This document shows, in pieces, positions 5,071-48,563 of a stretch of DNA of 64,000 nucleotides. Position numbers and translations under genes: made by a program. The stretch's first letter is position 1. The number at the start of each line of letters is the position of its first letter. A model generated the notes under the pieces. The model worked only from the letters and a program-made list of their open reading frames with translations, ran no database searches and was not told the origin of the DNA. Location of the stretch: positions 186,001 through 250,000 of the forward strand of contig NZ_JAIVAE010000007.1 of the NCBI RefSeq assembly GCF_020171785.1, in the 5' to 3' direction. This DNA comes from Guptibacillus hwajinpoensis (GTDB lineage Bacteria; Bacillota; Bacilli; Bacillales; Guptibacillaceae).

Positions 5071-5492
5071 TGAACAATTGCCTCCAGTTAAGCTCTAGCT
5101 TTATAGTATCTCGATGAAAGCGCTTTTGATTTGAAAAACACAAATTCAAATATAGCTTAGATAGGATGAATAAAGCAATGGTTAATTGAGGAAAAGTGCC
5201 TGTCACCACCCGAATAATGCTCTTTTTTGTCTAATCGAAAGAGGTAACTTAATATTTTTATCAACTGAAACAGTTTAAAGCGAAAAATATTTTGATGATT
5301 TTTAATAAATCATAAATGAAAAAAGTTGGACTATGTGAGTTCCAACCTCTAAAGAAGTTTTCTGCTTTGTAGCAGTTATTTATGTAGCTATTCTATGTTA
5401 ATAAACTAGCGCACAACTGATCTCAGAGACTTTCCCAATCAAAGGATATGTTCGTTCAGGATTAATTGTTAGAAAATTTAGATTTTGTAAAC
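5071..5492. other. Intergenic region with a REP-like motif
   Basis: No gene is supported here. It contains GTGCCTGTCACC at 5196-5207, which I recall as a recurrent intergenic motif in Bacillaceae, and a weak hairpin (GTTGGA...TCCAAC) near 5325-5350. The rest is AT-rich spacer upstream of the large peptidase operon. Confidence 0.4.
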
Positions 5493-5528
5493 TACTTTAC
5501 ATTAAAGTAAAAAATCAAATTATATAAT
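5493..5528 (+). promoter_or_regulatory. Candidate operator and -10 of the peptidase/importer operon
   Basis: A perfect dyad TACTTTA-CAT-TAAAGTA (5493-5509) lies just upstream of a consensus TATAAT (5523-5528). Taking that hexamer as the -10, the dyad is centred near -34, over the -35 region, where no good -35 hexamer is visible. That arrangement suits a regulator-controlled promoter. The regulator is unknown. Confidence 0.45.
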
Positions 5529-5561
5529 AAATAAAAAGTAAGTGGTACTCAAAAGGTGGGG

Positions 5562-6893
5562 ATGAGCCTGGGGGATTGGAATGTCGTCAAAGAAGAAGCT
5601 ACTTTTTATTTAAGTAAATTGATTCAAATCGAAACAACAACGAAGCTTCAAAATGAAATGGATGCTATTCTCTATTTAGCAAAAATCGCCGAAGAAAATG
5701 GTCTTCAAACTTCAATTCAGAAGACGGCAGCAAATAGAGGAAATATCATTATATCTCTAAAAAAAGAATATGATTCGCCTGTGGTTTTATTGTCTCATGT
5801 AGATGTCGTTCCAGCGAATGCAGAAGATTGGAAGGTTCCTCCGTTTAATGGAGAAGTTGTAAATGAAGAGATGTGGGGAAGAGGAACCATCGATACGAAG
5901 CAACTTACGATAACACATTTAATGATACTTATTCTATTAAAACGAAATGGTATTGATCTTAAGCGAGATATTGTGATGGTAGCTACTTCGGACGAGGAGA
6001 GTGGAAGTCGTTATGGTCTTCTCCCATTTATACAAGAGAATCCGGGCTTTTTTAATCAAACAACAGTCTTTAATGAAGGGGGAGGATTCCCAATCCTCAT
6101 AGGTGACAGAGCATATTACTTATGTGAGACAGGGCAAAAAGGTCGTGCCATCGTTAAAATAAACGCAAAAGGTCAAACCCCAAGCAATTCCTATTTACCC
6201 GATCAGTCAAGTCTACAAACCATATTGCAAGTGATACAAAAATTAAAGCATATCAAACTAAATGATACCATTCCTTCTTCTACAAAAACGTTGTTTGAAA
6301 CAATCGCTTCAGAATATGGACATTCTTTCTCTGAGTTACAACTTGATGATTTTCTCGAATTGGTGCCAGAATATCAATCACTACTTCGGGCAATGGCTTC
6401 AACTACTGTTACTGTAACAAAATGGAATGGGGGAAGAAAGCATCCTATCCTTCGAGGAGAGTATGAACTTCATTTAGATTGTCGACCTGTTCCTTCAATC
6501 TCTAGAAGTGAATTTGAGAATTGGCTCAACACGATTCTAGACGGATTACCTGTTGAATGCAGCATTGAATCGTATACCGAAGGATTTGAAACGACCTTAA
6601 ACCAGTCACATCTTGCATTATTTGAAAAAGAATTAAAAAAAGAGGTTCCTCATGCAAAAGTAGTACCGTTTCTATCTATAGGAGGTAGTGACTCAAAGCA
6701 TGTTGTATCCTATGCTTCTCATATTTACGGTTACTGTCCGATGTTACCTGATATGACATTTGATCGAGTAATTAAAATGGTACATGGGGTGGATGAACGG
6801 ATCCCATTGGATTCTTTTATTTTCGGGATCAAGAACTTGTACAGATTGTTAGTTGGAATAGGGGGTGAGGAAGATGAAAGCAATGGTACCTGA
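5562..6893 (+). CDS. M20-family metallopeptidase/deacylase, first copy (divergent lid)
   Basis: A protein of about 443 residues of the M20 (ArgE/DapE/carboxypeptidase G2) family of di-zinc amide hydrolases. Metal and catalytic motifs are present: SHVDVV near residue 79 (His, Asp), GRGTIDTK (Asp), SDEESG (general-base and metal Glu), NEGGG (Glu) and a C-terminal MVHGVDER (His). The lid-domain signature GGHAGSPP of its paralogue at 8082-9398 is replaced by KGQTPSNSY, so the His that usually contacts substrate across the dimer is missing, as is the NVVP motif. The specificity or activity is therefore probably altered. The start could be the ATG used here, a GTG 6 bases earlier or a CTG 6 bases later. 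It is the first gene of the operon and overlaps the next by 20 bases. Confidence 0.85.
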   Translation: MSLGDWNVVKEEATFYLSKLIQIETTTKLQNEMDAILYLAKIAEENGLQTSIQKTAANRGNIIISLKKEYDSPVVLLSHVDVVPANAEDWKVPPFNGEVVNEEMWGRGTIDTKQLTITHLMILILLKRNGIDLKRDIVMVATSDEESGSRYGLLPFIQENPGFFNQTTVFNEGGGFPILIGDRAYYLCETGQKGRAIVKINAKGQTPSNSYLPDQSSLQTILQVIQKLKHIKLNDTIPSSTKTLFETIASEYGHSFSELQLDDFLELVPEYQSLLRAMASTTVTVTKWNGGRKHPILRGEYELHLDCRPVPSISRSEFENWLNTILDGLPVECSIESYTEGFETTLNQSHLALFEKELKKEVPHAKVVPFLSIGGSDSKHVVSYASHIYGYCPMLPDMTFDRVIKMVHGVDERIPLDSFIFGIKNLYRLLVGIGGEEDESNGT

Positions 6894-8076
6894 TATCACA
6901 TTTGAAAAAGCAGATCAGGCTGTTCAACTAATGAAGCAGAATGGAATTGATTCGTGGCTCATTCTGACGAGAGAAGGCTCAGATCCAGCTCTCCCTTTAT
7001 TAGTAGGCATCCGCTCTGTTCATATGGCAGCTATTTTCCTAAGAAGTAATGGAGAACATTTGGCATTAACCTCTGTTAGCGATCGAGGAAGCTATGAAGC
7101 GATCGGCTTATTTCATAGAATTCTTACTTATGAAGCTAGTATGGAAGAATCGTTTCTAAATATTTTTAACCAGCTAAATCCTCAGAAAGTAGCTTTAAAT
7201 ATATCTGAATCCGATCATTTATGTGATGGATTAACTCAAGGGATGTACCTTTGGTTAGAAAAAGTTCTTGGCAGGAATCGATTACAACAGATTGAGACGA
7301 GCAGTGAAAGGCTCTTGAAGAAGCTACGTAGTATCAAAACTCATTCTGAAATTGAGCAGATACAACAAGCGATTACGATGACGACAGAAATCTATCAAGT
7401 AGTCTTTGGTCAGATAGTGTGCGGGATGACGGAAATTGAAATAGGGGATCTTTTTGTTCAAGAAATGAAGAGGAGGGGCGCTTCGAATGGTCTCGGCCAT
7501 CCGCATGGTCCTCCTCTCGTTTGTATCGTTCGAAAAGGATTAGCCCATCGCAAACCAGCGAGTCATGTAACGAAGCCTGGCGATCTACTTATTATTGATT
7601 TTAGTCTGAAATTAAATGACTATGTATCAGATATTGCGAGAACTTGCTATTTCCTACCGGAACAAGAAACGTATCCGCCTGTTGAAGTTCAGCATGCATT
7701 CAATACGGCTATTGCGGCTATTGATGCTTCTATCGAATCGTTGTTACCTAACAAGGCGGGATTCGAGGTAGATGCAGCTGGCAGAAAAGTGATAGAAGAA
7801 GCCGGATATCCAACGATTCGTCATTCGGTCGGTCATCAGGTAGGAAGAGAAACACATGATGGAGGGACGATTCTCGGGCCAAAACGTATACCGATTAGAC
7901 CAGAGGTTGAAGGAGTTATTGCTGCTGGCGAAATTTACGCTATTGAACCAACCGTTATTCAGGACAACGGTCTTCCTTGTATCCTTGTAGAAGAGAATGT
8001 TCTGGTAACGGAGCAAGGGCCACTTATTCTAAGTGAAAGGCAAACTGAACTTGTCATCATCGAGTCAGGCAGGTGA
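6874..8076 (+). CDS. M24-family metallopeptidase, Xaa-Pro dipeptidase/creatinase-like, first copy
   Basis: A 400-residue two-domain pita-bread protein: a creatinase-type N-terminal domain (about 10-155) and an M24 catalytic domain (about 160-395). All five metal ligands are visible: Asp in IIDFS (about 242), Asp in VSDIART (about 253), His in VGHQVG (about 321), Glu in AIEPT (about 358) and Glu in LVEENVLVT (about 373). It should therefore be metal-dependent, unlike true creatinase. Substrate unknown; relatives cleave Xaa-Pro dipeptides or hydrolyse compounds such as ectoine. The ATG has GGGGG 8 bases upstream. It is paired with the preceding M20 gene and is a paralogue of the M24 gene at 9358. 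Confidence 0.87.
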   Translation: MKAMVPDITFEKADQAVQLMKQNGIDSWLILTREGSDPALPLLVGIRSVHMAAIFLRSNGEHLALTSVSDRGSYEAIGLFHRILTYEASMEESFLNIFNQLNPQKVALNISESDHLCDGLTQGMYLWLEKVLGRNRLQQIETSSERLLKKLRSIKTHSEIEQIQQAITMTTEIYQVVFGQIVCGMTEIEIGDLFVQEMKRRGASNGLGHPHGPPLVCIVRKGLAHRKPASHVTKPGDLLIIDFSLKLNDYVSDIARTCYFLPEQETYPPVEVQHAFNTAIAAIDASIESLLPNKAGFEVDAAGRKVIEEAGYPTIRHSVGHQVGRETHDGGTILGPKRIPIRPEVEGVIAAGEIYAIEPTVIQDNGLPCILVEENVLVTEQGPLILSERQTELVIIESGR

Positions 8077-8081
8077 ACGCT

Positions 8082-9398
8082 TTGAATCTTATGGGAAAAG
8101 CAGAACTGTGGCTAAGAAATTTAATTAAAATCGATACAACAAATGAAAAGCAAAGTGAAATCCTAGCGGCTACTTATCTCAAAGAAGAATTAGCAAAAGA
8201 AAACATTGATTCTACTATCTTGTTCAGTACAGCTAATCGCGCCTCTATTGTGGCTAAGTTACATGGGTGTGGAAAGAAAGAAGAGCCCCTTGTCCTCCTT
8301 TCTCATCTTGACGTTGTAGCCGCCAATGAACAGGAATGGTCTTATCCTCCTTTTAGCGCTGCCGTTGCAGGTGAAGCTATTTGGGGGAGAGGGACTCTTG
8401 ATACGAAACAGTTAACCGTTATGCATTTGATCGCCTTTATATCATTAAAAAGGAAGGGGTTCCTACTAAATCGAGATATCTATTTCGTTTCGACAGCGGA
8501 TGAAGAAAATGGAAGTGCGGAGGGTATGTCCTATTTAGCGAAAACTCATCCGGAAATTTTTAATGGAGCAACGGTTCTAAGTGAGGGCGGAGGTTTTACT
8601 GTTGAAGGAGTTGATCAATGCTACATGCTGTATGCCTGTGGTGAAAAAGGTACAGCTAGAGTGAAATTAACTGCCACTGGTGAAGGTGGGCATGCGGGTA
8701 GTCCACCAGTAAATCAAGCGATCGATCATCTAACACATGTGTTAAGTCTTCTTCAAGAAACGGGATTTGCCTCCTCGACCTATAACGTTGAAAAGTTTTT
8801 TAAGCTACGCATAAAAGAACAGAAGCTTATAAATGATCAGCTTAGTTTTGTTCGTCAATTACGTGAGTACATGTCGCAACTCACTTATACAGTTGAACAT
8901 ATTAGCATAGGGGAACAGCTAAATGTTGTTCCTTATAAAGCAGAGGCTATCATTGAATTTAGACTTCTTCCATATCAAACTGAAAAGCAATTTGTGGAGC
9001 AGATCATCCCGCTCCTTGCTCGTAAGGAAGTAGGAGTCGAGATTCTTTCTTTTGAACAAGGTTATGAAAGTGATGCGCTTAGTGAAATGGTTCAATTATT
9101 CAAAAAGTTTTCGTTTCGTGAGAGTCGAAGTATGGAGTGGGTCCCATTTACGGCGCTTGGTAAAACTGATGGTCGATTTATAGGTCAGAATGCTAGAAAT
9201 ATCTATGGCTTATCCCCAACGCTCACGCCTTTTACGGAGGTACTCAAAAGGGTTCATCAGGTAGATGAACGAATTGAGATCGATTCATTTCAATATGGCG
9301 TAGAGATGATGAGAAATGTTGTTCAAGAATACTGCATGATGAAAGGAGGGGGCGAAGTTGTATCAAGTTCAACAAGAGAAAATGAATCAAGTGATTGA
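8082..9398 (+). CDS. M20-family metallopeptidase/deacylase, second copy (canonical)
   Basis: A protein of about 438 residues, paralogous to the M20 gene at 5562. It keeps the whole family signature: LSHLDVV, GRGTLDTK, TADEENGS, SEGGG, the lid motif TGEGGHAGSPP with its His, LNVVPYKAEAIIEFR, and a C-terminal HQVDER. It should be an active zinc amidohydrolase, for example acting on dipeptides or N-acyl amino acids; the exact substrate is unknown. I favour a TTG start 9 bases after AGGCAGG. A GTG at 8073 overlapping the previous stop is possible, and the first ATG lies too far from the site. It overlaps the following M24 gene by about 40 bases, so the two are probably translationally coupled. 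Confidence 0.88.
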   Translation: MNLMGKAELWLRNLIKIDTTNEKQSEILAATYLKEELAKENIDSTILFSTANRASIVAKLHGCGKKEEPLVLLSHLDVVAANEQEWSYPPFSAAVAGEAIWGRGTLDTKQLTVMHLIAFISLKRKGFLLNRDIYFVSTADEENGSAEGMSYLAKTHPEIFNGATVLSEGGGFTVEGVDQCYMLYACGEKGTARVKLTATGEGGHAGSPPVNQAIDHLTHVLSLLQETGFASSTYNVEKFFKLRIKEQKLINDQLSFVRQLREYMSQLTYTVEHISIGEQLNVVPYKAEAIIEFRLLPYQTEKQFVEQIIPLLARKEVGVEILSFEQGYESDALSEMVQLFKKFSFRESRSMEWVPFTALGKTDGRFIGQNARNIYGLSPTLTPFTEVLKRVHQVDERIEIDSFQYGVEMMRNVVQEYCMMKGGGEVVSSSTRENESSD

Positions 9399-10572
9399 CC
9401 ATCTTCAGCAATTGGATATAGACGCATGGCTTATCTATACATCAGAAGGTAGTGATCCATGCATTCCCCTTGTAACTGGAGTAGGAACTGTTGGTCCAGG
9501 GGTCTTTATGGTTACGAAAGATCGTCAGAAATTTGCACTATGTAGTAGTATTGATGCTCAAGATATTGAGGAATCCAGACTTTTCGATAAGGTGTACAAG
9601 CATGATGGTAATTTAGCTGGCCTTTTAACAGGTGTGATATCAGAAATGAAACCTAATAAGATTGCCTTGAATTTCTCAGTTGAGGAACACCTTGCCGATG
9701 GGTTAACCGCTGGGAGATACCGCTGGCTCACTAGAACCCTATGTGAAGTTTTTAAAGGAGAGATTGTATCATCTGAAACATTCTTATCCTCCATTCGAAG
9801 TATTAAAACAAAGACCGAAATCAATAGAATTGAACAGGCGATTAACATAACCGAGGAAATTTACAGTACCGTCTTCCAAAGAATGAAAATTGGAATGTCA
9901 GAGAGAGCGCTTGGGAAGCTTTTTGTGGAAGAAATGGAAAAGCGTCATGTTGTAAACGGTATTGATCGTAAGCTTTCTATGCCAATCGTTTTAAAAGAGA
10001 ACGTTGCACACAGAGAGCCTGGAGAGGCAGTGGTAAAGGGCGGTGATCTTGTTATTTTCGATTTTAGTGTGGATGTGGAAGGATACGTCTCTGATATTGC
10101 CCGAACCGTTTATTTTCTGAAAGAAGGAGAAAGTGAACCACCAGATCATATTCATCAAGCATTTCAATCTGTCCATGAAGCAATTTCGATGGCTGGGGCA
10201 GCGATTAAACCAGGTGCAAAAGGTTATGAAGTTGATGATGCAGCGAGAAGGTTTTACTTGTCGCAGGGATTTCCTGAAATCTCCCATGCTACAGGACATC
10301 AAATAGGAAGAGATGTGCACGACGGTGGCATACTTCTTGGACCGAAATGGGAACGGTATGGGGCAGCACCACTTGGAGAAGTGAAAGAAGGAATGGTTTT
10401 TACGATAGAACCTACTCTTTTCTTAGATAATGGCATCCATTTTATCGTTGAAGAGAATGTTGTTGTCACATCTGAAGGGATTCGTTACTTGACGACTAGG
10501 CAGAATGAACTCATTCTCATTCCATTCAGCAAAGAACGGGAGGAGAAGGAAGTTGAAAAAGTATCTGATTAA
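9358..10572 (+). CDS. M24-family metallopeptidase, Xaa-Pro dipeptidase/creatinase-like, second copy
   Basis: A 404-residue paralogue of the M24 protein at 6874, with the same two-domain layout. Metal ligands are intact: Asp in IFDFS (about 235), Asp in VSDIART (about 246), His in TGHQIG (about 314), Glu in TIEPT (about 351) and Glu in IVEENVVVT (about 365). The shared GSDP signature near residue 31-34 and the HDGG after the active-site His set both copies apart from the shorter M24 enzyme encoded further downstream. Translation starts at a TTG with a perfect AAAGGAGG 8 bases upstream, inside the end of the M20 gene. The pair probably acts on the same imported compound. Confidence 0.88.
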   Translation: MYQVQQEKMNQVIDHLQQLDIDAWLIYTSEGSDPCIPLVTGVGTVGPGVFMVTKDRQKFALCSSIDAQDIEESRLFDKVYKHDGNLAGLLTGVISEMKPNKIALNFSVEEHLADGLTAGRYRWLTRTLCEVFKGEIVSSETFLSSIRSIKTKTEINRIEQAINITEEIYSTVFQRMKIGMSERALGKLFVEEMEKRHVVNGIDRKLSMPIVLKENVAHREPGEAVVKGGDLVIFDFSVDVEGYVSDIARTVYFLKEGESEPPDHIHQAFQSVHEAISMAGAAIKPGAKGYEVDDAARRFYLSQGFPEISHATGHQIGRDVHDGGILLGPKWERYGAAPLGEVKEGMVFTIEPTLFLDNGIHFIVEENVVVTSEGIRYLTTRQNELILIPFSKEREEKEVEKVSD

Positions 10573-11512
10573 AAGGCTACTCCAATCTATTCCAATTTTA
10601 ATTGGTATTACAATTATGACCTTCGCCATCATGCAACTTGCCCCGGGTAATCCCATGCAAACAATGATTGACCCTAAAATATCCGCTGAAGAAATGCAGC
10701 GCGCTCAAGAAAATCTCGGTATGAACGATTCGCTACCTGTGCAATATGTCACGTGGCTAAAGGAAATTGCGCAGGGGAACTTCGGTTATACAGTGAAGAC
10801 GGGTCAATCTGTCGGAGGGCTTATTGTTGAAAGGCTACCAGCTACACTACTATTAACGGGAACAGCTTTCATCATGGCATTTGCAATCGGTGTGCCACTC
10901 GGCGTTTATTCTGCAACACATCGCTACAAGCTACCAGATTATGTGCTAACCGTTATTTCATTCGTAGGTATTTCCATACCATCCTTCTTTTTTGGATTAG
11001 CATTAATCTTTATTTTTGCATTAAAGTTAGGTTGGCTTCCAACTTCAGGAATGATCACGGTTGGAGCAGATTATAGTGGATTTCAATTGTTTGTAGATTA
11101 CCTCAAGCATGTTACGCTACCTGCCATCGTTCTAGCACTTCCAACAATAGCGGTTGTGATGAGGTTTACAAGGTCCAGTATGCTTGAAGTTCTCAATCAA
11201 GATTTCATTCGCACAGCTGATTCGAAAGGATTAAGTAAAAAGGTTGTTTATTTAAAACACGGACTGAGAAACGCTTTAATTCCTGTCATTACGATATTTG
11301 GTCTTTCCATCCCATTTCTATTTGGAGGAGCTTACATTACTGAACATATTTTTAACTGGCCAGGGATGGGGAGTCTCGGTATCCAATCGATTGTAGCTCG
11401 AGAATATCCAGTTATTATGGCATTGAATCTCTTTACTTCGATCCTAGTTATGTCAGGAAACCTACTAGCAGATGTGATGTATGCATGGGCAGACCCGAGA
11501 ATTAGATACTGA
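10553..11512 (+). CDS. Peptide-type ABC importer permease (DppB/OppB-like)
   Basis: A 319-residue inner-membrane permease with the BPD_transp_1 fold. The N-terminus MKKYLIKRLLQSIPILIGI and LAPGNP motif are diagnostic of DppB/OppB/AppB, and the cytoplasmic coupling loop (EAA motif) is seen as IRTADSKGLSKKVVYLKHGLRNALIP. It forms the channel together with the next gene product. The start is a TTG with AGGAGAAGGA just upstream; an earlier ATG in the same frame lies deep within the M24 gene and has no site. It lies between the peptidase pairs and the binding protein, so substrate import and hydrolysis are encoded together. Confidence 0.93.
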   Translation: MKKYLIKRLLQSIPILIGITIMTFAIMQLAPGNPMQTMIDPKISAEEMQRAQENLGMNDSLPVQYVTWLKEIAQGNFGYTVKTGQSVGGLIVERLPATLLLTGTAFIMAFAIGVPLGVYSATHRYKLPDYVLTVISFVGISIPSFFFGLALIFIFALKLGWLPTSGMITVGADYSGFQLFVDYLKHVTLPAIVLALPTIAVVMRFTRSSMLEVLNQDFIRTADSKGLSKKVVYLKHGLRNALIPVITIFGLSIPFLFGGAYITEHIFNWPGMGSLGIQSIVAREYPVIMALNLFTSILVMSGNLLADVMYAWADPRIRY

Positions 11513-11539
11513 AAGTAGTTAATGGAAAGGGGGAGTGAG

Positions 11540-12460
11540 ATGAATGGCAGCTTAGAAGTTTCTGAAGAGAAGATCATTGTTCAGACAGAGGAAAGTAAAA
11601 GTTGGCGAGATAATGCAGCTTGGAAGCGATTTAAGAAGAACCGACTTGCCTTAATCGGTGCTGTTATTCTCATGGTGTTGTTACTGGCATCGATCATGGC
11701 ACCTGTTCTTGCACCTTATAGTCCCTATGACTCTATCAAAAGTGAAGCAGGTACATTAGATGTTCTTGCACCTCCAGGAAGCGAACATATTTTAGGAACC
11801 GATAGTCTTGGAAGAGATATGCTTTCACGCATTATATACGGTGGTAGAGTCTCATTAAGCGTTGCATTTGTAGCCGTGATGATTGCAACTGTCACTGGTG
11901 TTCTTCTCGGAGTCATTGCAGGTTATTACGGTAGATGGATAGATACGATTATTATGCGTATTACCGATGTTGTGATTTGTTTCCCTGTTTTGTTTCTAGC
12001 TATTACGGTTGCAACAATTTTAAAACCTAACCTATTTAATGTCATGCTTATTATCGGCCTCGTTAGCTGGACAACCATGACCAGGCTAGTACGAGGTGAA
12101 GTTTTAAGACTAAGAGAGATGGACTACATCGAAGCAACGCGAGCAATGGGACAGCGAGACTTCATTATCATTATGAAGCATATATTGCCGAATATCATGG
12201 CACCGATCGTTGTGCAGGGGACGTTGCAAACTGCAGAAGCGATCTTAACAGAATCAGCCTTAAGCTTTCTAGGCGTTGGTGTTCAACAACCTGTTCCAAG
12301 CTGGGGTAATATGCTGAATGAAGCCACTTCTATTATGGTATTACAATTCAAGCCGTGGGTATGGATGCCGGCTGGATTTGCGATATTGATTACAATTTTA
12401 TGTATTAACTTTGTTGGTGACGGTCTTCGAGATGCTTTAGATCCAAAAATGAAAAATTAA
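11540..12460 (+). CDS. Peptide-type ABC importer permease (DppC/OppC-like)
   Basis: A 306-residue permease partner of the preceding DppB-like protein. It has the DppC pattern: a soluble N-terminal segment ending WKRFKKNRLALIGAVIL, then LGTDSLGRDMLSRIIYGGRVSL, and the EAA coupling loop YIEATRAMGQRDFIIIMKHILPN. About six membrane helices are visible. The ATG is preceded by AAAGGGGGAG. Its product should heterodimerise with the upstream permease and be driven by the two ATPases encoded after the frameshifted M24 gene. Confidence 0.93.
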   Translation: MNGSLEVSEEKIIVQTEESKSWRDNAAWKRFKKNRLALIGAVILMVLLLASIMAPVLAPYSPYDSIKSEAGTLDVLAPPGSEHILGTDSLGRDMLSRIIYGGRVSLSVAFVAVMIATVTGVLLGVIAGYYGRWIDTIIMRITDVVICFPVLFLAITVATILKPNLFNVMLIIGLVSWTTMTRLVRGEVLRLREMDYIEATRAMGQRDFIIIMKHILPNIMAPIVVQGTLQTAEAILTESALSFLGVGVQQPVPSWGNMLNEATSIMVLQFKPWVWMPAGFAILITILCINFVGDGLRDALDPKMKN

Positions 12461-12474
12461 AAGGGGCGGTCTAA

Positions 12475-14151
12475 ATGGGGAAAAAGGGTTTTGTAGGGAT
12501 TATTTTCTTAATATTCACTCTTTTATTAACAGCTTGTTCTTCTACTAATAATGCAGAAAAGGCATCTACTGCCGAAACAGAGGAGGTTGTTGGCGGAACA
12601 GTTACGATTGCTTTTAACAGTGAGCCAGGAAACTTGAATCCAGCGATCTGGGCAACTACATCTGATACCGACATCACACACATGGTATTCGATTCTCTAG
12701 TTGTTCCCGATCAAGAATTAAAGATGGAAGGGCGTTTGGCTGAGAGTTGGGAAGTATCTGAAGATGGTAAAATATATACATTTAAGCTAAAAGATGGGGT
12801 TACATGGCACGACGGTGAAGCATTTACTGCGGACGATGTTGCCTTTACGTTCACTTCGCTTGCAGATGGAGCCTATGACTCTGGTGCCTATTGGAGGGTA
12901 GATCCACTTGTGGGAGCTGCTGAATACAAAGAAGGTAAAGCTAAAAGTATTGAAGGTATTGAAGTAGTAGATGATACAACAATTAAATTTACAACGAAAG
13001 AACCTTTTGCACCTTTCGTATCTGGGTTATTTATTGGAATCTTACCGGAGCATGTGCTAAAGGATGTTTCCCCAGGTGAGTGGGCCAAACATGAATCTAA
13101 TCGCTCTCCAATTGGTACAGGACCATTCAAATTCGTGAAATGGGAAACAGGTCAATACATTGAATTAGAAGCGAACAAAGACTACTTTGGAGAAACGCCT
13201 AAACTTGACCGACTGATTGCTCGTTTTGGCGATGCGAATACTATGCTAGCCTCAGTGCTTAGTAAGGATGTCGATATCTCCCCGGTTCCTGTTTCTGAAA
13301 CACCTTCAGTTGAATCACTGGATTATGCGAGTCTTGTGACACAAAATTCACTAAGTGTTTATTATGTAGGCTTTAACACGAAAAGTGCTCATTTCGATGA
13401 CCCTAAAGTACGACAGGCATTGGCTCATGCTGTAGACAAGGAGTCGATTGTCACTTCCATTCTTGGTGAATATGGGAATATAGCGGATGATATTTTCCCT
13501 TCTAAGCACTGGTCCCATAGTCCAGATCTACCGATCTATGACTTTGATACGGCCAAGTCAGAACAACTGCTAGAAGAAGCAGGTTATGAAAAAAATAGTG
13601 AGGGGATTTATGAGAGGGATGGTAATGAGTTGAGTTTCATGATGGAAGTACCAACCGGAACGAAAGAAAGAGAAAAGTCCGCAGTCCTATTAAAGCAAAT
13701 GTGGGAAAAAATTGGTGTGAAAGTCGAACTGAGATCGCTTGATTTTCCAACGCTTGTAACGAAGCTTCTCCCTAAGACTGATGACGGAAAACAGCGTGAA
13801 GTAACAAAGGATGACTACGATGCATACATTCTCGGATTTGGTATTGAAGTAGATCCAGATGAATACCGTAGTTATTTCGGCAGTGAATATATGCCTCCTA
13901 ATGGTTATAACTTTGTCGGGTACTCTGATCAAAAGGTAGATGAGCTTTTAGAAGCTCAAACAACGGAAATTGATTTTGATAAGCGTCAGCAGTTGATTTG
14001 GGATGTTAGCCAAAAGTTAGCGGAAGATGAAATTTGGATTCCATTATACGAACAAGAATCACCGTTCGTTGTAAACAATCGTGTTAATGGGTTCGAACCA
14101 GATTTTCGTGGGGTAACATTTAGTGCTGAAAGCTGGTCAGTATCAGAGTGA
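12475..14151 (+). CDS. Peptide-binding lipoprotein of the ABC importer (SBP family 5)
   Basis: A 558-residue extracytoplasmic binding protein anchored as a lipoprotein. The signal peptide (about residues 1-20) ends in the lipobox LTAC. The SBP_bac_5 domain follows (about 75-470), with the family motif AESWEVSEDGKIYTFKL. It captures the operon's substrate for the DppBC-type permeases; family members bind peptides, nickel chelates, opines and related compounds, so the ligand cannot be assigned. The start ATG has AAAGGGGC upstream. A GC-rich hairpin directly after the gene may stabilise this part of the message and give binding-protein excess. Confidence 0.93.
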   Translation: MGKKGFVGIIFLIFTLLLTACSSTNNAEKASTAETEEVVGGTVTIAFNSEPGNLNPAIWATTSDTDITHMVFDSLVVPDQELKMEGRLAESWEVSEDGKIYTFKLKDGVTWHDGEAFTADDVAFTFTSLADGAYDSGAYWRVDPLVGAAEYKEGKAKSIEGIEVVDDTTIKFTTKEPFAPFVSGLFIGILPEHVLKDVSPGEWAKHESNRSPIGTGPFKFVKWETGQYIELEANKDYFGETPKLDRLIARFGDANTMLASVLSKDVDISPVPVSETPSVESLDYASLVTQNSLSVYYVGFNTKSAHFDDPKVRQALAHAVDKESIVTSILGEYGNIADDIFPSKHWSHSPDLPIYDFDTAKSEQLLEEAGYEKNSEGIYERDGNELSFMMEVPTGTKEREKSAVLLKQMWEKIGVKVELRSLDFPTLVTKLLPKTDDGKQREVTKDDYDAYILGFGIEVDPDEYRSYFGSEYMPPNGYNFVGYSDQKVDELLEAQTTEIDFDKRQQLIWDVSQKLAEDEIWIPLYEQESPFVVNNRVNGFEPDFRGVTFSAESWSVSE

Positions 14152-14174
14152 TGATTTCAAATAAGACACAACGA

Positions 14175-14197
14175 GGGTTCGGGTGTCCCCCGAATCT
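14175..14197 (+). promoter_or_regulatory. Hairpin after the binding-protein gene
   Basis: GGTTCGGG pairs with CCCGAATC (one G-T) around a 5-base loop, between the binding-protein stop and the next ribosome binding site. There is no following T-run, so it is more likely a message-stabilising or partial attenuating structure than a full terminator. Confidence 0.5.
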
Positions 14198-14218
14198 TCT
14201 CACTTACAGGAGAGTGAG

Positions 14219-15282
14219 ATGTTAGAAAGAATTGAAAAGCTGAAGAAAATAATGCAGAAAAATCACCTTGATGCTGTGTTTGTCAATTCCTATGAAAATC
14301 GAAGGTACTTGTCCGGCTTTACTGGGAGCAACGGATACGTTTTCATTACATCAAATGACCATAGTTTAATCACTGATCAGCGATACGCAGTGCAGGCAAA
14401 TGAGCAGACAGAAGGTTTGAGATCTATATTTATGGAATTGATCCATATGAAATGATGAAGGACATCTTCTCTACAAAAACAATCAAGACGATTGGCTATG
14501 AAGCTAATTCATTAACTGTGCAGTTCTTCCATAACCTTCAAAACTTACTACCTCATATGGAATGGGTTCCGCTTTCTTCAGAATTCCATTCGATGAGGCG
14601 TTTAAAAGATGAGAAGGAATTGAAGCTAATCAAGCAAGCTGTAGAGATTGCAGATCAGTCTTTTCATGAGCTTCTCCCTCGGATTCAACCGGGAATGACG
14701 GAAAAAGAGGTGGCTGTGGAGCTTGAGTATTTAATCGGGAAAAATGGGCATGATGGACCAGCTTTTGGCACGATCGTAGCTTCTGACATTCGCGCAGCTT
14801 TACCTCATGCTACGCCTTCATCAAATGTGGTGAAAAATGATCACTTTCTTTTGATTGATTTTGGTGTAAAGTACAAGGGGTATATGTCTGACATGACAAG
14901 AACGATTTGGATTGGCTCTCCCAATCAAGAACTACAGCAATATGATCGAATTGTTCATAAAGCCCTTGAAGAGGCGATTGCCGCGATAAAGCCAGGGAGG
15001 ACAGGTCATGAAATTGATGCTGTCACGAGAAGGGTGTTTCAAAATGAAGGAATTGAATCCTATAGTCTCCGTGGACTTGGGCATGGTGTTGGATTAGCTA
15101 TTCATGAGCATCCAAGAATCGTACTGAATGGGGAGGAAGTAGTAGAAGCTGGAATGGTTTTTACGGTTGAACCAGGTTTATACGTACCGAATAAAGTAGG
15201 CGTAAGAGTAGAAGATATCATTCATGTGACGGACCGTGGCTGTGACATACTGACAAAAACTCCACGGCATATCCATATTTAA
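14219..15282 (+). pseudogene. Xaa-Pro aminopeptidase/dipeptidase (M24), split by a one-base frameshift
   Basis: The N-terminal creatinase-like part (MLERIEKLKKIM..., with ENRRYLSGFTGSNGY) and the catalytic part are in different frames. At TTT 14416-14418 one T appears to be missing: restoring it reads TEGFEIYIYGIDPYEMMKDI without interruption and gives about 354 residues, the normal length for this family. All five metal ligands are intact in the second part (IDFG, SDMTR, GLGHGVG, VEPG, RVED). The ATG has AGGAGAG upstream. The catalytic half alone could start at an ATG at 14452. This could be a real mutation, a slippage-dependent gene or a base-calling error; conserved sequence on both sides argues the change is recent or artefactual. 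Confidence 0.8.
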
Positions 15283-15297
15283 ATTAGGGGGGATGAG

Positions 15298-16323
15298 ATG
15301 GATCCTTTATTGAAAGTCCAAAATCTAAAAACATATTTTTATAGTGACCAGAAAGAAACCCCTGCTGTTGATGGCGTCTCATTTGAAATTAATAAAGGAG
15401 AAACTTTGAGTATTGTTGGAGAGTCAGGTAGTGGTAAGAGCGTTACATCGCTCTCAATACTTCAGCTGCTCCCAAAACCTCATGGAAAGATTATCGGTGG
15501 AGAAGTTCTATTTAAAGGAGAAAACCTTGTCACGAAAAGTGATGGAGAGATTAGAAAAATTCGAGGCAATGATATATCAATGATTTTTCAGGAACCAATG
15601 ACATCACTTAACCCTGTTTATACTGTAGGAAATCAAATTGTAGAAGTCCTAGTCTTACATCAAAAACTCTCAAAAAAAGAAGCTAAAAAGAAAGCGATTG
15701 ATATGCTCACTTTAGTCGGAATTCCTTCGGCAGATCAAAGAGTGAATCAATACCCCCATCAATTATCAGGCGGGATGCGGCAACGGGTCATGATTGCGAT
15801 GGCCCTTGCCTGCAATCCGGATCTCCTTATTGCAGATGAACCCACAACTGCTCTTGATGTGACAACTCAGGCGCAAATCCTCGACTTGATGAATGATTTG
15901 AAAACCAAACTGGATACGTCCATTCTTCTTATCACACACGATCTTGGTGTTGTGGCTGAAACTGCTGATAAAGTGGCGGTCATGTACCTTGGAAGAATTG
16001 TCGAATACGCAGACGTTGAGACATTCTTTGAATCTCCTAAGCATCCATACTCACGCGGATTGATTCAATCCATGCCAGGCTTGAAAGATCGCGTGGCTCG
16101 TTTAAGCCCTATCAAAGGTCAGGTACCCCATCCATCTGACGTTAAGTCAGGATGTCGTTTTGCTAGTCGATGCGAGTATGTTGAGTCCATGTGCTTAAGT
16201 GAGGAACCACCGCTTATTGAAGTAGGTCGGAATAAAACAAGATGTTGGATGAATAGTGAAGACTGGACAGGCGAAGGGGGGATTAATGATGAACGAGAGA
16301 CTGTTGGAAATAGAAAATCTTAA
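15298..16323 (+). CDS. Peptide ABC importer ATPase (DppD/OppD-like)
   Basis: A 341-residue cytosolic ATPase with Walker [10 protein letters not shown]-loop region [12 protein letters not shown], signature LSGGMRQR, Walker [13 protein letters not shown] and switch His in ITHDLG. The C-terminal oligopeptide/dipeptide extension carries the Cys-containing motif [15 protein letters not shown] typical of DppD/OppD. It powers the DppBC-type permease with the next ATPase. The ATG follows AGGGGGG. The end of the gene overlaps the start of the following ATPase gene by about 38 bases. Confidence 0.94.
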
Positions 16324-17278
16324 GAAATGGTTTCCGGTAGATACCGCAGGTTTCTTCTCGAAGGAAAAAAGTTATGTGAAAGCTGTTGATGATATTAGTT
16401 TTTATATTGAGAAGGGTGAAACGTTAGGATTAGTTGGTGAATCAGGATGTGGAAAATCCACAGCAGGCAGAGTAATCCTTCGTCTTCTAGAGGCATCTGA
16501 AGGAAGAATAGTTATTGAAAATGAAGACATTCGTGCTCTGAGTTCGAGGGAATTAAAAAAGAGAAGAAAGAACATGCAAATTGTTTTTCAAGATCCATAC
16601 GCCTCATTAAATCCCAGGTTAAAAGTTGGACAAATTCTTGAAGAGCCAATGAGCATTCACTTGAGTCTTTCGAAAAAGGAAAGAAAAGAGCGCGTAAAGC
16701 AGATTATGAATGATGTGGGCTTAAATCAGAGCTATCTTGATCGGTATCCCCACGAGTTCTCTGGGGGACAAAGGCAACGGATTGGCATTGCGAGGGCACT
16801 TGCAGCGAATCCGAAGCTCATCGTTATGGATGAGCCTGTTTCCGCACTCGATGTTTCGGTTCAAGCGCAGGTTCTCAATTTGATTCAAGATTTACAAGAG
16901 AAGTATGACTTAACATATTTGTTTATAACGCATAACTTAAGCGTTGTGAAGCATATATCGAATCGAATCGCTGTGATGTATTTAGGTAAAATTGTTGAAA
17001 TCGCTGACCGAGATGAATTCTTTCATTCTCCAAAACATCCTTATTCAAAAGCTCTATTATCAGCGATTCCAGAACCCGATCCTAAGCAAAGGAAAGAAAG
17101 AATTATTTTAAAAGGAGATATTCCTAGTCCAGTAGATCCACCCGATGGATGTAGATTTCATACGAGGTGCCCATACGTGATGGATACTTGTCGGACAAAA
17201 ACCCCTGATTTGAAGGTTACAAATAAAAATCACTTTGTAGCATGTCATCTTGAAAAAACAGTAGAGGAGATTAATTAA
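16286..17278 (+). CDS. Peptide ABC importer ATPase (DppF/OppF-like)
   Basis: A protein of about 330 residues with Walker A GESGCGKST, QIVFQDPYASLNP, signature FSGGQRQR, Walker B LIVMDEPVSALD and a C-terminal GCRFHTRCPYVMDTC region as in DppF/OppF. It pairs with the DppD-like protein. Two adjacent in-frame ATGs (16286 and 16289) lie 4 and 7 bases after AAGGGGGG; the second has the better spacing. Its stop overlaps the next start (TAATG), so the oxidase gene is tightly coupled to the importer. Confidence 0.94.
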   Translation: MMNERLLEIENLKKWFPVDTAGFFSKEKSYVKAVDDISFYIEKGETLGLVGESGCGKSTAGRVILRLLEASEGRIVIENEDIRALSSRELKKRRKNMQIVFQDPYASLNPRLKVGQILEEPMSIHLSLSKKERKERVKQIMNDVGLNQSYLDRYPHEFSGGQRQRIGIARALAANPKLIVMDEPVSALDVSVQAQVLNLIQDLQEKYDLTYLFITHNLSVVKHISNRIAVMYLGKIVEIADRDEFFHSPKHPYSKALLSAIPEPDPKQRKERIILKGDIPSPVDPPDGCRFHTRCPYVMDTCRTKTPDLKVTNKNHFVACHLEKTVEEIN

Positions 17279-18420
17279 TGAAAATGTATGATGCAGTGAT
17301 TGTAGGTGCAGGAATTATTGGTTGTTCCATTGCTTATTTTTTAACAGAGAAGGGTTTTGCGAATGTTCTAGTCATTGATAAAGGAGGCATCGCTTCAGAT
17401 GTTACGGGTCTATGCCCGGGAGGAGTTCGTCAGCAATGGGGTACGGAAATTAATTGTTTAATGTCTAAAGCGTCCACCGAGTTTTTTAATGAAATTAATG
17501 ACAGATTAGAACCAGAACATGAAATTAAATTTCGCAGTGTAGGTTATATGAATACGTTTCATTCAGAAGAAGCGAAAGCCAAGTATGCTGAAAACGTAGC
17601 GTTACAAAACTCTTTGGGGATTCCGACTAAGTTTATATCTCCCCAGGAAGCGAAGGAATTAATTCCTGGTATTAACGAATCAAGTTTTCTGACAGCAGCT
17701 TTTTGTGAAACGGACGGATTCGTAGATGATGCCTATCATGTGACACAAAGTTTTGCGGATGCAGCAAAACGTAAGGGTGTTGAATTTGTAAATGATACGG
17801 TGAATCGTATCGTTGTCGAAAATGGCGTCGTGAAAGGGGTAGATTGTGAGAAAAGAGGACTTATTGGGGCTGATCGAGTTGTTAATGCAGCGGGGTTAGG
17901 TTCTAAGAAAATGGCTGAAACTGCTGGTGTTGCTCTACCGATTGAATTTGAAATCAGGCGAATTTTATATACGAATCGAGTCCCCAAGCGAATTTTAGAG
18001 CCCCTCTTAATTTCGTTTGAGAAGGGATTTGCTGCAAAACAATTAACGGATGGTACATTGTATCTAAGTTATTTAGGTAAAGATCTTAAACCACCGTTTA
18101 ACTCCTTCGATTATCAAGTGAGGGCTGCGGAAGTAGGAACGGAAATTTTCCCTCCTCTAGAGAGTTTAGTTTTCCATACACATGTTGATGGTCGATATGA
18201 CAGCACATCCGATCACCAGGCAATTCTTGGTGATGTAGATGGAGTACTAGGGTATTATCAGGCGGTTGGAATGAGTGGACACGGGTTCATGATGTCCCCA
18301 TCTATTGGTGAATCTCTTGCAGCGATGGTCACAGGAAATATTCCTCAAGTGGATGTATCGAGTCTACATTTTAATCGCTTCCAAACAAATCAACTAGTCT
18401 TTGAACCTAGCGTAGTATAG
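17278..18420 (+). CDS. FAD-dependent amine/amino-acid oxidoreductase (DAO family)
   Basis: A 380-residue flavoprotein with an N-terminal dinucleotide-binding motif (DAVIVGAGIIGCSIAYFL, ending in an acidic residue at VIDKGG) and the DAO-family C-terminal region (HTHVDGRYDSTSDHQAILG, GYYQAVGMSGHGFMMSP). Relatives include sarcosine, glycine and N-methyl amino-acid oxidases or dehydrogenases. In this operon it may oxidise an amine or N-substituted amino acid released by the M20/M24 enzymes; that step is inference. The start overlaps the previous stop and an AGAGGAG lies about 9 bases upstream. No partner subunit or ferredoxin-like gene is adjacent. Confidence 0.85.
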   Translation: MKMYDAVIVGAGIIGCSIAYFLTEKGFANVLVIDKGGIASDVTGLCPGGVRQQWGTEINCLMSKASTEFFNEINDRLEPEHEIKFRSVGYMNTFHSEEAKAKYAENVALQNSLGIPTKFISPQEAKELIPGINESSFLTAAFCETDGFVDDAYHVTQSFADAAKRKGVEFVNDTVNRIVVENGVVKGVDCEKRGLIGADRVVNAAGLGSKKMAETAGVALPIEFEIRRILYTNRVPKRILEPLLISFEKGFAAKQLTDGTLYLSYLGKDLKPPFNSFDYQVRAAEVGTEIFPPLESLVFHTHVDGRYDSTSDHQAILGDVDGVLGYYQAVGMSGHGFMMSPSIGESLAAMVTGNIPQVDVSSLHFNRFQTNQLVFEPSVV

Positions 18421-18431
18421 GAGGTATATCC

Positions 18432-18905
18432 ATGACAACATTTTATATTCATTTTGTAGACTCAGATGTATCATTAAAAGCAGAGGTGCTTTCTGAGCAA
18501 GCTCCTTCTACAACGGAGGCTTTTGTTCAAGCACTATCTGAGCCGATTGAAACTGCAGGCACACATGCGATGTATACTGGCAGAGAAATTTCAATTCAAT
18601 TACCTGTTGATACGTGTCAAGACAGCAAGCTTCATGATCCTGCGAAGGAAAATTTAACGTGCTTCCCTACGCCTGGTGATATACTTTTTACGTTTATGCC
18701 AGCATATGCCTGGGGTGGAAATCCATCGCCAATCTATGACTTTGGTCTTTTCTATGGAAAGGAAGCGAGAACCTTCTTTCCAGCCGGTTGGTTGCCTGGG
18801 AATTTATTCGCTAGAGTTGTAAAGGAAGATTTAGAAGAGCTCGAAGAAATGGGAAGGATGATTCACATAAAAGGGAGGCAAAAAGTGATTCTATCACTTG
18901 AGTAG
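18432..18905 (+). CDS. DUF3830-family protein (cyclophilin-like fold)
   Basis: A 157-residue soluble protein with no signal peptide. The segment FPTPGDILFTFMPAYAWGGN followed by PIYDFGLFYG matches what I recall of DUF3830, a family with a cyclophilin-like barrel and no established function. As the last gene of a peptidase/importer/oxidase operon it may be a small enzyme or a carrier for an intermediate; nothing in the sequence decides this. It has a good site (TAGGAGG) and lies 11 bp after the oxidase. A very strong terminator follows. Confidence 0.75.
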   Translation: MTTFYIHFVDSDVSLKAEVLSEQAPSTTEAFVQALSEPIETAGTHAMYTGREISIQLPVDTCQDSKLHDPAKENLTCFPTPGDILFTFMPAYAWGGNPSPIYDFGLFYGKEARTFFPAGWLPGNLFARVVKEDLEELEEMGRMIHIKGRQKVILSLE

Positions 18906-18934
18906 CTGCTTAAAAAGCAATAGGTGATTGGGCT

Positions 18935-18978
18935 AATACTCCGCGCATTTGCTATATAAATGCGCGGAGTATTTCTAT
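18935..18978 (+). terminator. Strong terminator of the peptidase/importer operon
   Basis: A stem of about 15 bp (AATACTCCGCGCATTT / AAATGCGCGGAGTATT) with a short loop, then TTTCTATT. It marks the end of the operon that begins at 5562. Confidence 0.9.
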
Positions 18979-19041
18979 TATAAAATGGTCTTCACAATAG
19001 AACTTTCTCTAAAACGACACTCTTTTTCCCAAGAAGTGTTA

Positions 19042-19071
19042 TTGACAGTCAATCTAATTCAAATGTATTAT
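19042..19071 (+). promoter_or_regulatory. Promoter-like sequence with no gene behind it
   Basis: TTGACA (19042-19047), an 18-base spacer and TATTAT (19066-19071) resemble a SigA promoter reading right. The following 130 bp contain no ORF. A hairpin (AACCAGC...GCTGGTT, 19208-19233) lies downstream, so a short RNA is conceivable. AT-rich DNA often gives such matches by chance. Confidence 0.3.
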
Positions 19072-19206
19072 TAATATACTATAATAATGATTTAATATAC
19101 AATGAATACTAATTTCCATTTTCGTTAGAATTTGTAAAAAATATCATTATAGTAATAAAACATCTTATTTGTTGAATTTAGGTTATCGGTTTCTTTAAGT
19201 TTCAAA

Positions 19207-19235
19207 TAAACCAGCCAATCCCATTAGATTAGCTG
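19207..19235 (-). terminator. Probable terminator of the aminotransferase gene
   Basis: AACCAGC pairs with GCTGGTT around a 13-base loop, followed on the minus strand by TTTATTTG. It lies about 20 bp past the stop. The stem is short and the T-tract interrupted. Confidence 0.45.
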
Positions 19236-19251
19236 GTTGTATATTTATGAA

Positions 19252-20382
19252 TTATGTTAAAGATCGTAATGTAGTGAGACACGCGTCAATATCCTCAGTT
19301 GTATTGTAAATATGGGGTGCGATCCGTATAACATTCTGTCTTGCTGAAACGATGAACTTGGCTTTCTTCATTTGCTCCTCAATTTGATGAGCAGCGTCCA
19401 CGTAAATGGCTGTATTCGACCCTTTTTGAATGGCGCGATCAGGACTTGCTAGACGAAATCCTAACTCATCTGCTTTAACAATTGTATAAGCTGATAGCTT
19501 TTGCAAGTGCTGTTCAATCTGTTCCATTCCGATTTTCTCAATGAATGAAAGAGCTGCTTCAGCAATATAAGCGTTTATAACAGGAGGGGTCCCTGTATTG
19601 AAACGTTGGGCTGATGGAGCATATTCTAGCTCTTTTAATTTGAAGTCAAAGGGATTTCGTTGTCCAAACCATCCTGTAGTTGTCGGTTGCAAATGTTCTG
19701 CTACTTCTTTCTTTACGTATAGAAATGAAATTCCTGGTACACCTAGTAGGTACTTTTGCATCCCGGTCATAAGGATGTCGATTCCCATTTCCTGAACATC
19801 TATTTTTACGTTCCCAGCTGATTGATATGCATCTACCATGAGAAGAGAGCCATTTTGATGGGCAATTTCACCAATTTGTTTTACATCTTGCTTAAATCCA
19901 TTGTAATAAGAAACGTGAGGAATACAGGTTAAAGCAGTATCTTTTGTGATAAATTTCTCGTAATGCTCAAGTGGGATTGTATGGTTCTCTTCAGGTATAT
20001 AAGTTATACGGAAGCTTTGAGCTTGCTGCTGAGCCAGGAGTGCTTGACCAATGCAAGGAAAGTCCATTTCGGTGACGCAAACATTCTTCTCCTTTAGGTC
20101 CAGCGCATGTAGAACACTTGAAATCGAATCTGAAACGGATGAGAGGACAGCAACTTCATGTGGAGAGCAATTGATAAGCTTAGCAAATTTTTGTTTCGCT
20201 GCATTTACTTTGTCCATCCATAACTCCCACGACATGCCATCTTCAATCAAACTATCTTTGTAGTTCTCAATCGCAGTAATCACGTCATATGACAATGCAC
20301 TTTGTGAACAGCTTGAAAGCATGACTTTCTTTTGTAAAATTGGAAATTCTGCGCGAATTCTAGTCGTTACCAGAGTTTTCAT
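19252..20382 (-). CDS. PLP-dependent aminotransferase class V (cysteine desulfurase/epimerase-like)
   Basis: A 376-residue fold-type I PLP enzyme. The motif MVDAYQSAGNVKIDVQEMG supplies the PLP-binding Asp, and the presumed Schiff-base Lys is in MTGMQKYLLGVPG. Class V includes cysteine desulfurases, kynureninase-like and isopenicillin N epimerase-like enzymes; the lack of a recognisable catalytic-Cys loop makes a classical desulfurase unlikely. The real substrate is unknown. I chose the ATG 11 bases after AAAGGA; a GTG two codons earlier is also possible. It is divergent from a Crp/Fnr-type regulator and follows the peptidase operon convergently, so a link to that pathway is possible but not shown. 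Confidence 0.8.
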   Translation of the reverse strand: MKTLVTTRIRAEFPILQKKVMLSSCSQSALSYDVITAIENYKDSLIEDGMSWELWMDKVNAAKQKFAKLINCSPHEVAVLSSVSDSISSVLHALDLKEKNVCVTEMDFPCIGQALLAQQQAQSFRITYIPEENHTIPLEHYEKFITKDTALTCIPHVSYYNGFKQDVKQIGEIAHQNGSLLMVDAYQSAGNVKIDVQEMGIDILMTGMQKYLLGVPGISFLYVKKEVAEHLQPTTTGWFGQRNPFDFKLKELEYAPSAQRFNTGTPPVINAYIAEAALSFIEKIGMEQIEQHLQKLSAYTIVKADELGFRLASPDRAIQKGSNTAIYVDAAHQIEEQMKKAKFIVSARQNVIRIAPHIYNTTEDIDACLTTLRSLT

Positions 20383-20415
20383 TAGCACTTATTCCTTTCA
20401 TATGAGGTGAAGAAC

Positions 20416-21120: not shown

Positions 21121-21258
21121 CTGTATTATAATTAGAAGATTCAGAAAAAGATGTAAAGTGGTTAACAAAATGACTAGAATATTAGATGTTGAAGTTGAAA
21201 AAACAATAATTGTTATCCTCGTTTATTAAAATAAATAGATTACAAACTGGTAGATTGT

Positions 21259-48487: not shown

Positions 48488-48530
48488 TGTGATGTTTATC
48501 ACACCTGAATGAGAAGTGAACTCTTATAAT
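48488..48530 (+). promoter_or_regulatory. FNR box and class II promoter of fnr
   Basis: TGTGATGTTTATCACA (48488-48503), within a 20-bp palindrome from 48486 to 48505, is a perfect TGTGA-N6-TCACA site. A consensus TATAAT lies at 48525-48530. With +1 at about 48537 the site centre is at -41.5, the class II activation position. This predicts autoactivation of fnr when oxygen is low. Confidence 0.82.
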
Positions 48531-48563
48531 GAAAGCAACAGAAAGGTTCTAGGAGGGAAATCG

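Follow-up and report, generated by a model that had tools for sequence, protein, structure and literature searches.

What could the products of a run of metallohydrolase, importer and oxidoreductase genes in Guptibacillus hwajinpoensis do together? We analyzed a window of 64,000 nucleotides from this bacterium (contig NZ_JAIVAE010000007.1, positions 186,001 to 250,000), in which twelve genes, all on the plus strand and separated by gaps of -68 to +31 nucleotides (nt), are bounded by a promoter with a palindrome on one side and, on the other, by a strong terminator, an intrinsic hairpin at 18935-18973 on the plus strand (17 pairs, -25.8 kcal/mol, z -6.4). An initial annotation made from the sequence alone had described this co-directional layout, and it holds; its functional reading is supported in part. 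Based on the gene content, its conservation and residue patterns in the proteins, we put at about 50% the probability that these genes belong to a 14-gene catabolic cluster controlled by a Crp-family activator, working in the steps proposed below. The cluster is of a recognizable kind with new combinations, and it is real and conserved. The annotation knew of no described pathway with this set; consistent with this, the open-licence literature yielded no paper on the gene set, none naming DUF3830 and none on an M24 enzyme of unlike subunits. If correct, our proposal would provide the first testable role for DUF3830 and an example of an M24 enzyme working as unlike subunits, and would draw attention to peptide-linked amino acids as a class of compounds that bacteria consume.

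Gene content, conservation and regulation of the cluster

Four other genomes share the 12 genes and their order, namely G187 (locus L073), G069 (L074), G158 (L075) and Cytobacillus praedii (L032, L078), the first three of which belong to the same taxonomic order as the window genome. Protein identity to the window ranges in these relatives from 41.5% (M20_2 in G158) to 88% (DppB in G187). Recurrence of the gene order in four other genomes indicates that the arrangement is more than chance, and conservation of the set in relatives, on which the initial annotation had staked its proposal, was thus observed. In each of the four relatives the next gene, on the opposite strand, encodes a class-V pyridoxal phosphate (PLP) enzyme, and a Crp-family gene follows; the counterparts in the window lie at 19252-20388 (minus strand) and 20407-21120 (plus strand). 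Because both genes adjoin the twelve in all four relatives, the conserved unit almost certainly comprises 14 genes. The annotation was right to treat the genes as one unit, but it drew that unit too short, overlooking these two.

All matches of the operon proteins to the Pfam families M20, M24, SBP_bac_5, DAO and DUF3830 exceed the cut-offs, as do those of the importer genes to BPD_transp_1, OppC_N, ABC_tran and oligo_HPY. This confirms the DAO-family flavoprotein and the DUF3830 protein of the initial annotation, as well as its two M20 and three M24 family assignments, but not three intact M24 frames. M24_3 is split in the window into two overlapping frames on the plus strand, one (14183-14455) matching Creatinase_N positions 1-63 and the other (14452-15282) matching Creatinase_N 88-126 and the M24 catalytic domain, whereas it is a single frame of 354-361 amino acids (aa) in all five relatives compared (L073, L074, L075, L032, L033). 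The split may be genuine or a sequence error.

The ATP-binding cassette (ABC) importer is encoded on the plus strand by DppB/AppB-like (10505-11512, a later true start being probable) and DppC/AppC-like (11522-12460) permease genes, a substrate-binding lipoprotein (SBP) gene (12475-14151), and DppD-like (15298-16323) and DppF-like (16256-17278) ATPase genes. It had been called a complete Dpp-type importer; an oligopeptide-type importer is supported, but the SBP is nearest in the Protein Data Bank (PDB) to AppA (1xoc), of the oligopeptide type, rather than to DppA. The five-gene importer thus resembles the App oligopeptide importer of Bacillus subtilis, with the differences that the SBP falls under the cut-off of the NCBIfam equivalog Opp4A (333.1 bits, cut-off 650) and that M24_3 is interleaved among the importer genes.

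Upstream of the operon, a Crp-type palindrome, TGTAAACTACTTTACA (5486-5501, plus strand), lies 21 nt before a TATAAT hexamer (5523-5528). Upstream of M20_1 in all five loci with the whole gene set, TGTAAA-N4-TTTACA or TGTTAA-N4-TTAACA is followed after exactly 21 nt by TATAAT or TATTAT. This combination of palindrome, spacing and -10 pattern occurs once in the window, counting both strands together, and not at all in 6 Mb of order-1 simulated sequence. In a related Chloroflexota locus, that of Ornatilinea apprima, the region preceding the first gene showed no such site. A transcription start about 7 nt past the -10 box would presumably centre the palindrome near -41.5, the position of a class II activator. 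The linked Crp-family protein (20407-21120), with cNMP_binding and HTH_Crp_2 domains over cut-off and no named NCBIfam equivalog reached, is the natural candidate to bind the palindrome and is proposed as activator of the operon. Because the window holds a second Crp/Fnr-type gene at 48516-49289, the identity of the regulator is one that we infer. A scan of 4900-21200 against Rfam gave no known RNA leader at the gathering threshold, and promoter-like hexamers within 10480-19260 were not in excess (17 found, shuffle mean 22.3).

The cluster is accessory and sparsely, patchily distributed. M24_1 is matched at 1e-60 in 6 of the 397 genomes of the order, window genome included, and is present in 2 of 18 genomes of the family of G069. 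DUF3830 occurs in one of 15 genomes of the window's family, which is the window genome itself, and is matched in 9 of 398 sampled genomes of the phylum. Eight of these matches are above the family cut-off; the locus of the ninth (G402), below it, was left out. Ornatilinea apprima (L033) carries ten of the twelve genes, for SBP, M20_1, M24_1, M20_2, M24_2, DppB, DppC, M24_3, DppD and DppF, with a class I/II aminotransferase gene after DppF and a Crp-type gene upstream; no DAO or DUF3830 match was found in this 21-kb stretch and no DUF3830 in the genome. A Mycoplasmatota genome (L034) carries the M24_1-M24_2 pair. Beside that pair (L034, 1-16555) are five further M24-like genes, three of them of 440-455 aa, with no Pfam match in the one scanned. 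All three Deinococcus plasmid loci that we opened contain nine counterparts (two M24s, a third M24, PLP enzyme, DAO, DUF3830, SBP and two permeases; the DUF3830 of L054 appears as two tblastn pieces), and no M20 was found in them. A haloarchaeal plasmid has M24s, a PLP enzyme and a DAO, with no DUF3830 match within 25 kb.

The M24 and M20 metallohydrolases

M24_1 (6865-8076, plus strand) and M24_2 (9358-10572, plus strand) have the fold, the metal ligands and the three second-shell histidines of the M24B family, that is, Xaa-Pro aminopeptidase P and prolidase. In all 21 alignment rows, the metal ligands, assigned by motif, are invariant (D245, D256, H324, E361 and E376/E377), as are H228, H320 and H331, which map by motif to His 243, 350 and 361 of PepP; the roles of the latter are taken from PMC5723419. 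The predicted model of M24_1 (pLDDT 88.3, the predicted local distance difference test) is nearest in fold to Xaa-Pro peptidases (2zsg). Identification as ectoine hydrolase or dimethylsulfoniopropionate (DMSP) lyase was considered and rejected, with scores far under the cut-offs and fold ranks behind the peptidases. Unlike M24B enzymes, M24_1 and M24_2 have lost two residues of the S1' pocket of Xaa-Pro peptidases, Arg and Tyr: in the window, EPTVI/EPTLF and LVEEN/IVEEN replace EPGLY and V-R-V/I-E. M24_3 keeps both residues in all five rows (window, L073, L074, L032, L033). Cleavage of Xaa-Pro bonds, which the initial annotation gave for M24 enzymes in general, therefore fits at best M24_3.

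We consider it fairly probable, from the pattern of N-domain retention and loop decay, that M24_1 and M24_2 are the type-1 and type-2 subunits of one heteromeric enzyme. Both N-domains are retained in all 14 genomes found to carry a type-1 or type-2 M24, a count from searches at 1e-60, at which lone N-domains and divergent copies would be missed. Of the catalytic domains, both are present in seven of these genomes, that of M24_1 only in six and that of M24_2 only in one. The six belong to the genus of G384, in which M24_1 is present in 6 of 8 genomes, and each has a gene of 151-156 aa abutting or overlapping M24_1 that matches only the M24_2 N-domain. This lone N-domain gene, a further difference from M24B enzymes along with the joint retention of both N-domains, scores above the Creatinase_N cut-off in two of the three scanned (L140 and L141, not L076) and is under purifying selection, with nonsynonymous-to-synonymous ratios (pN/pS) of 0.18-0.37 over 15 pairs, 14 of them saturated at synonymous sites. 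In the single genome with only the M24_2 catalytic domain, G017 (L077, 7517-9172), a single frame of 551 aa joins the N-domain of M24_1 to an entire M24_2.

The loops of these N-domains have decayed reciprocally. Among loop columns invariant in six reference pairs (18 for type 1, 26 for type 2), the six genomes whose only catalytic domain is that of M24_1 keep 8-10 of 18 in type 1 and 22-24 of 26 in type 2 (Fisher p 0.003-0.045 each), while G017 keeps 15 of 18 and 9 of 26, respectively (p 0.002). Without any choice of loops, the type-1 N-domain of the reduced genus shows clustered loss (permutation p 0.001), and the loss profiles of the type-1 (genus) and type-2 (G017) N-domains resemble each other (r 0.71). 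Head-to-tail dimers and cross-subunit loops are described for the M24B family (PMC5723419, PMC4213023): prolidase dimers are head-to-tail (PMC4213023), and in prokaryotic aminopeptidase P a loop enters the cavity of the neighbouring subunit, where Trp88' helps form S1' (PMC5723419). Reciprocal loop decay is what one would expect of a heteromer whose N-domains each contribute to the catalytic site of the other subunit, as the loop does in aminopeptidase P.

Several observations weigh against such a heteromer. The loops were picked after inspection of the data, and without that choice loss is not clustered in the type-2 N-domain of G017 (permutation p 0.51). A difference in overall N-domain decay in the reduced genus was rejected, total retention being alike (35-43 of 51 versus 52-54 of 70) and the loops alone differing. 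The six genomes with a lone N-domain all belong to one genus, which leaves about two independent events in all. Pairing does not extend to the wider subfamily, since among 301 Chloroflexota genomes 30 of the 31 that match M24_2 at 1e-55 have one match only. Orthology of the Deinococcus pair to types 1 and 2 is not supported; it groups separately in the tree and looks like a duplication of its own.

In the same tree, type 1 (support 100/100) and type 2 (90/79) each include Bacillota, Chloroflexota and Mycoplasmatota members, and 20 single-copy relatives lie apart from them together with haloarchaeal sequences and two more from Mycoplasmatota. These 20 loci, 16 of the 30 from Chloroflexota and all four from the window's phylum, were opened. 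Most have no query genes nearby, the exceptions being L130, with importer genes and another M24, and L128, with another M24; L114, L124 and L131 gave weak partial matches to query genes.

Complementary subunits may also describe the M20 proteins, M20_1 (5556-6893) and M20_2 (8073-9398), both on the plus strand. The metal-ligand motifs (His, Asp, Glu-Glu, Glu, His) are present in all 12 M20 rows, M20_1 included, while the lid-domain histidine is found in none of six M20_1 rows and in all six M20_2 rows, within GHA in the window. The lid histidine of DapE-type M20 enzymes can act across the dimer, so an M20_1-M20_2 heterodimer could likewise be complementary. The two M20-M24 pairs that the initial annotation had acting in two steps may rather be two sets of subunits, unlike each other and complementary.

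The DAO and DUF3830 proteins and the proposed pathway

The DAO-family flavin adenine dinucleotide (FAD) amine oxidoreductase (17278-18420, plus strand) aligns over nearly its whole length with its nearest PDB chain, 1y56_B (179.6 bits, versus 72.5 for the next). We take 1y56_B to be the beta subunit of an L-proline dehydrogenase; the structure search labels it sarcosine oxidase. The operon differs from this closest solved relative in that no partner-subunit gene for a heteromeric sarcosine oxidase or proline dehydrogenase was found among its genes. The PLP enzyme (19252-20388) is SufS- and kynureninase-like but under both NCBIfam cut-offs (SufS 137.3 bits, cut-off 475.1; kynureninase 87.4, cut-off 246.4).

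The DUF3830 protein (18432-18905, plus strand) scores 107.8 bits against PF12903 (cut-off 26), and its model (pLDDT 91.3) has a predicted cyclophilin-like fold. The nearest folds are 3kop (1.2e-11), followed by the Pictet-Spenglerases McbB (from 7.6e-8) and KslB (from 3.5e-7) and then by cyclophilins (from 1.8e-4). A 15-sequence profile matches 3kop (4.3e-24), 2nnz (4.6e-5), KslB (1.7e-4) and cucumopine-synthase-like chains (2e-4 and 3.7e-4), and more weakly PPIL3 (8.8e-4) and McbB (7.9e-3). A cyclophilin-like domain is thus common to DUF3830 and the McbB, KslB and cucumopine-synthase-like proteins, and an H-A-[MV]-x-[ST]-G stretch is common to DUF3830 and KslB-type chains in the profile alignments. 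Unlike these proteins of 273-340 residues, DUF3830 is a single domain of 157 residues (template modeling (TM) score 0.36-0.41 by target length, 0.62-0.71 by query length), and the two are likened by fold and profile. With a fold next to Pictet-Spenglerases after 3kop, DUF3830 may handle an imine adduct; we regard these matches as a hint of amine-carbonyl chemistry that falls short of proof.

Genomic context links DUF3830 to DAO in many, not all, settings. A DAO gene adjoins DUF3830 in the eight loci with close DUF3830s, in the window and other genomes, and lies within about 5 kb of it in the six plasmid loci opened (nine plasmid records matched DUF3830), DAO family membership being confirmed for L053, L057, L058 and L059. 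Caballeronia and rhizobial plasmids have DUF3830 and a DAO gene within about 5 kb of each other, an amino-acid importer of the branched-chain type, and nothing matching M24 in 24 kb. A monomer importer thus stands there in place of the importer and hydrolases, which suggests a role for the hydrolases in freeing the amino acid used by the DAO. In three of the six reduced genomes of the genus of G384, DAO (62-65% identity) and DUF3830 (51-55%) genes come next, giving a run of M24_1, M24_2 N-domain, DAO and DUF3830. DUF3830 is found in three of eight genomes of the genus, the same three. With the query set used, no M20 or importer gene was found in these stretches of 16-20 kb. With only four genes in this run, the core reactions lend themselves to laboratory tests.

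Based on these observations, we propose that an App-type ABC importer would take up a small peptide-like compound, whose amide bonds the M20 and M24 hydrolases would split. The M20s and M24_1/M24_2 would act as heteromers, the active site being completed by the partner's N-domain (M24) or lid (M20), and M24_3 would be an ordinary Xaa-Pro type peptidase. The DAO could then dehydrogenate the freed secondary-amine amino acid to an imine, DUF3830 could process either this imine or an amine-carbonyl adduct, and the PLP enzyme may degrade a product. Our confidence in any named substrate is low. A more specific version, in which an obligate heteromeric M24 acts first and feeds DAO and DUF3830 in a new catabolic pathway, is tentative and, in our view, doubtful; in it, opine-like or cyclic-imine amino acids would enter the cell as peptide conjugates and undergo Pictet-Spenglerase-like imine chemistry in the breakdown direction.

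Other findings speak against the proposed pathway. The other three reduced genomes lack DUF3830 altogether and have no close DAO next to the M24 pair, so that DAO and DUF3830 are not obligatory partners of the pair; a more distant DAO-like gene is located a few kb away in L142, and also in L140, L141 and, by sequence, L076. From the DUF3830 side, seven other loci of the window's phylum (L079-L085) have no M24 or DAO neighbour with the query set used. The co-occurrence of DUF3830 with M20-M24 and Dpp genes that the initial annotation proposed to look for therefore exists in the four relatives but does not extend to these seven loci, and the idea that DUF3830 always accompanies DAO or M24 was rejected. 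Among these loci, L079 (3945-12439) and L080 place DUF3830 amid amidohydrolase, Asp/Glu/hydantoin-racemase and nitrilase-family genes with a Crp-type gene, a different pathway setting; L082 has a distant class-V PLP-like gene (9023-10144), and L084 (8197-15137) a peptide-type binding protein and two permeases.

A simpler explanation, which we consider unlikely, is ordinary scavenging of proline- or hydroxyproline-rich peptides by an importer, Xaa-Pro peptidases and M20 dipeptidases, with the DAO as a proline or imino-acid dehydrogenase. The proline-pocket Tyr and Arg of M24_3, the proximity of the DAO to 1y56_B, and neighbours on the haloarchaeal plasmid annotated as prolyl oligopeptidase, M32, dihydrodipicolinate-synthase-like and ornithine-cyclodeaminase-like are consistent with it, but M24_1 and M24_2 lack the pocket residues, and to our knowledge neither DUF3830 nor the PLP enzyme has a part in known proline catabolism. 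Breakdown of opines or Pictet-Spengler adducts is improbable: here DUF3830 would reverse an amine-carbonyl condensation, or hydrolyze the imine that the DAO makes from an opine-like secondary amine held in a peptide or amide. The DAO family includes opine oxidases, and both the matches to McbB, KslB and cucumopine-synthase-like proteins and the proximity of DAO to DUF3830 (adjoining in eight loci, within about 5 kb in six on plasmids) point in this direction; yet true cyclophilins match too, the matched Pictet-Spenglerases are about double the length of DUF3830, no opine transport or synthesis gene was seen, and the seven further DUF3830 loci showed no DAO.

We judge a creatine-like logic similarly improbable. 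The M24 would be an amidinohydrolase or related C-N hydrolase whose substrate is an N-alkyl amino-acid derivative; a DAO resembling sarcosine oxidase would take the next step, and DUF3830 would be an accessory enzyme for cyclic amides. The succession of an M24-family C-N hydrolase and a DAO-family oxidase in the reduced run indeed resembles that of creatinase and sarcosine oxidase, creatinase (7yto) is among the fold matches, and the two genomes of the window's phylum in which DUF3830 lies amid amidohydrolase, racemase and nitrilase-family genes would suit a cyclic-amide role. However, creatinase is absent among 16 sequence matches at 1e-8 and ranks 25 in fold, so that Xaa-Pro peptidases outrank it in both. 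Creatinase lacks a metal site, whereas that of M24_1 and M24_2 is complete, and the cluster adds to the creatinase pathway a PLP enzyme, DUF3830, a peptide-type importer and an M20 pair, the last two superfluous for creatine.

Neighbouring features

Around the cluster and its relatives, other genes were observed. In Cytobacillus praedii (L032, 1642-8355), a PucR-type regulator, two amidohydrolases, a sodium:solute symporter and another M24 gene lie upstream of the operon, and the window has a sodium:solute symporter gene at 1952-3502. In all six genomes, the reduced M24 run is immediately preceded by a QueA-like gene (L140, 9158-10252; same place in L076, L139 and L141-L143) and a small gene of glyoxalase fold; the QueA-like gene matches Queuosine_synth in the single case scanned. 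The second Crp/Fnr-type gene of the window (48516-49289), flanked by three more Crp/Fnr-like palindromes (48448, 48488, 49404), encodes cysteines near its C-terminus and has a COX1-family gene downstream at 50081-51775.

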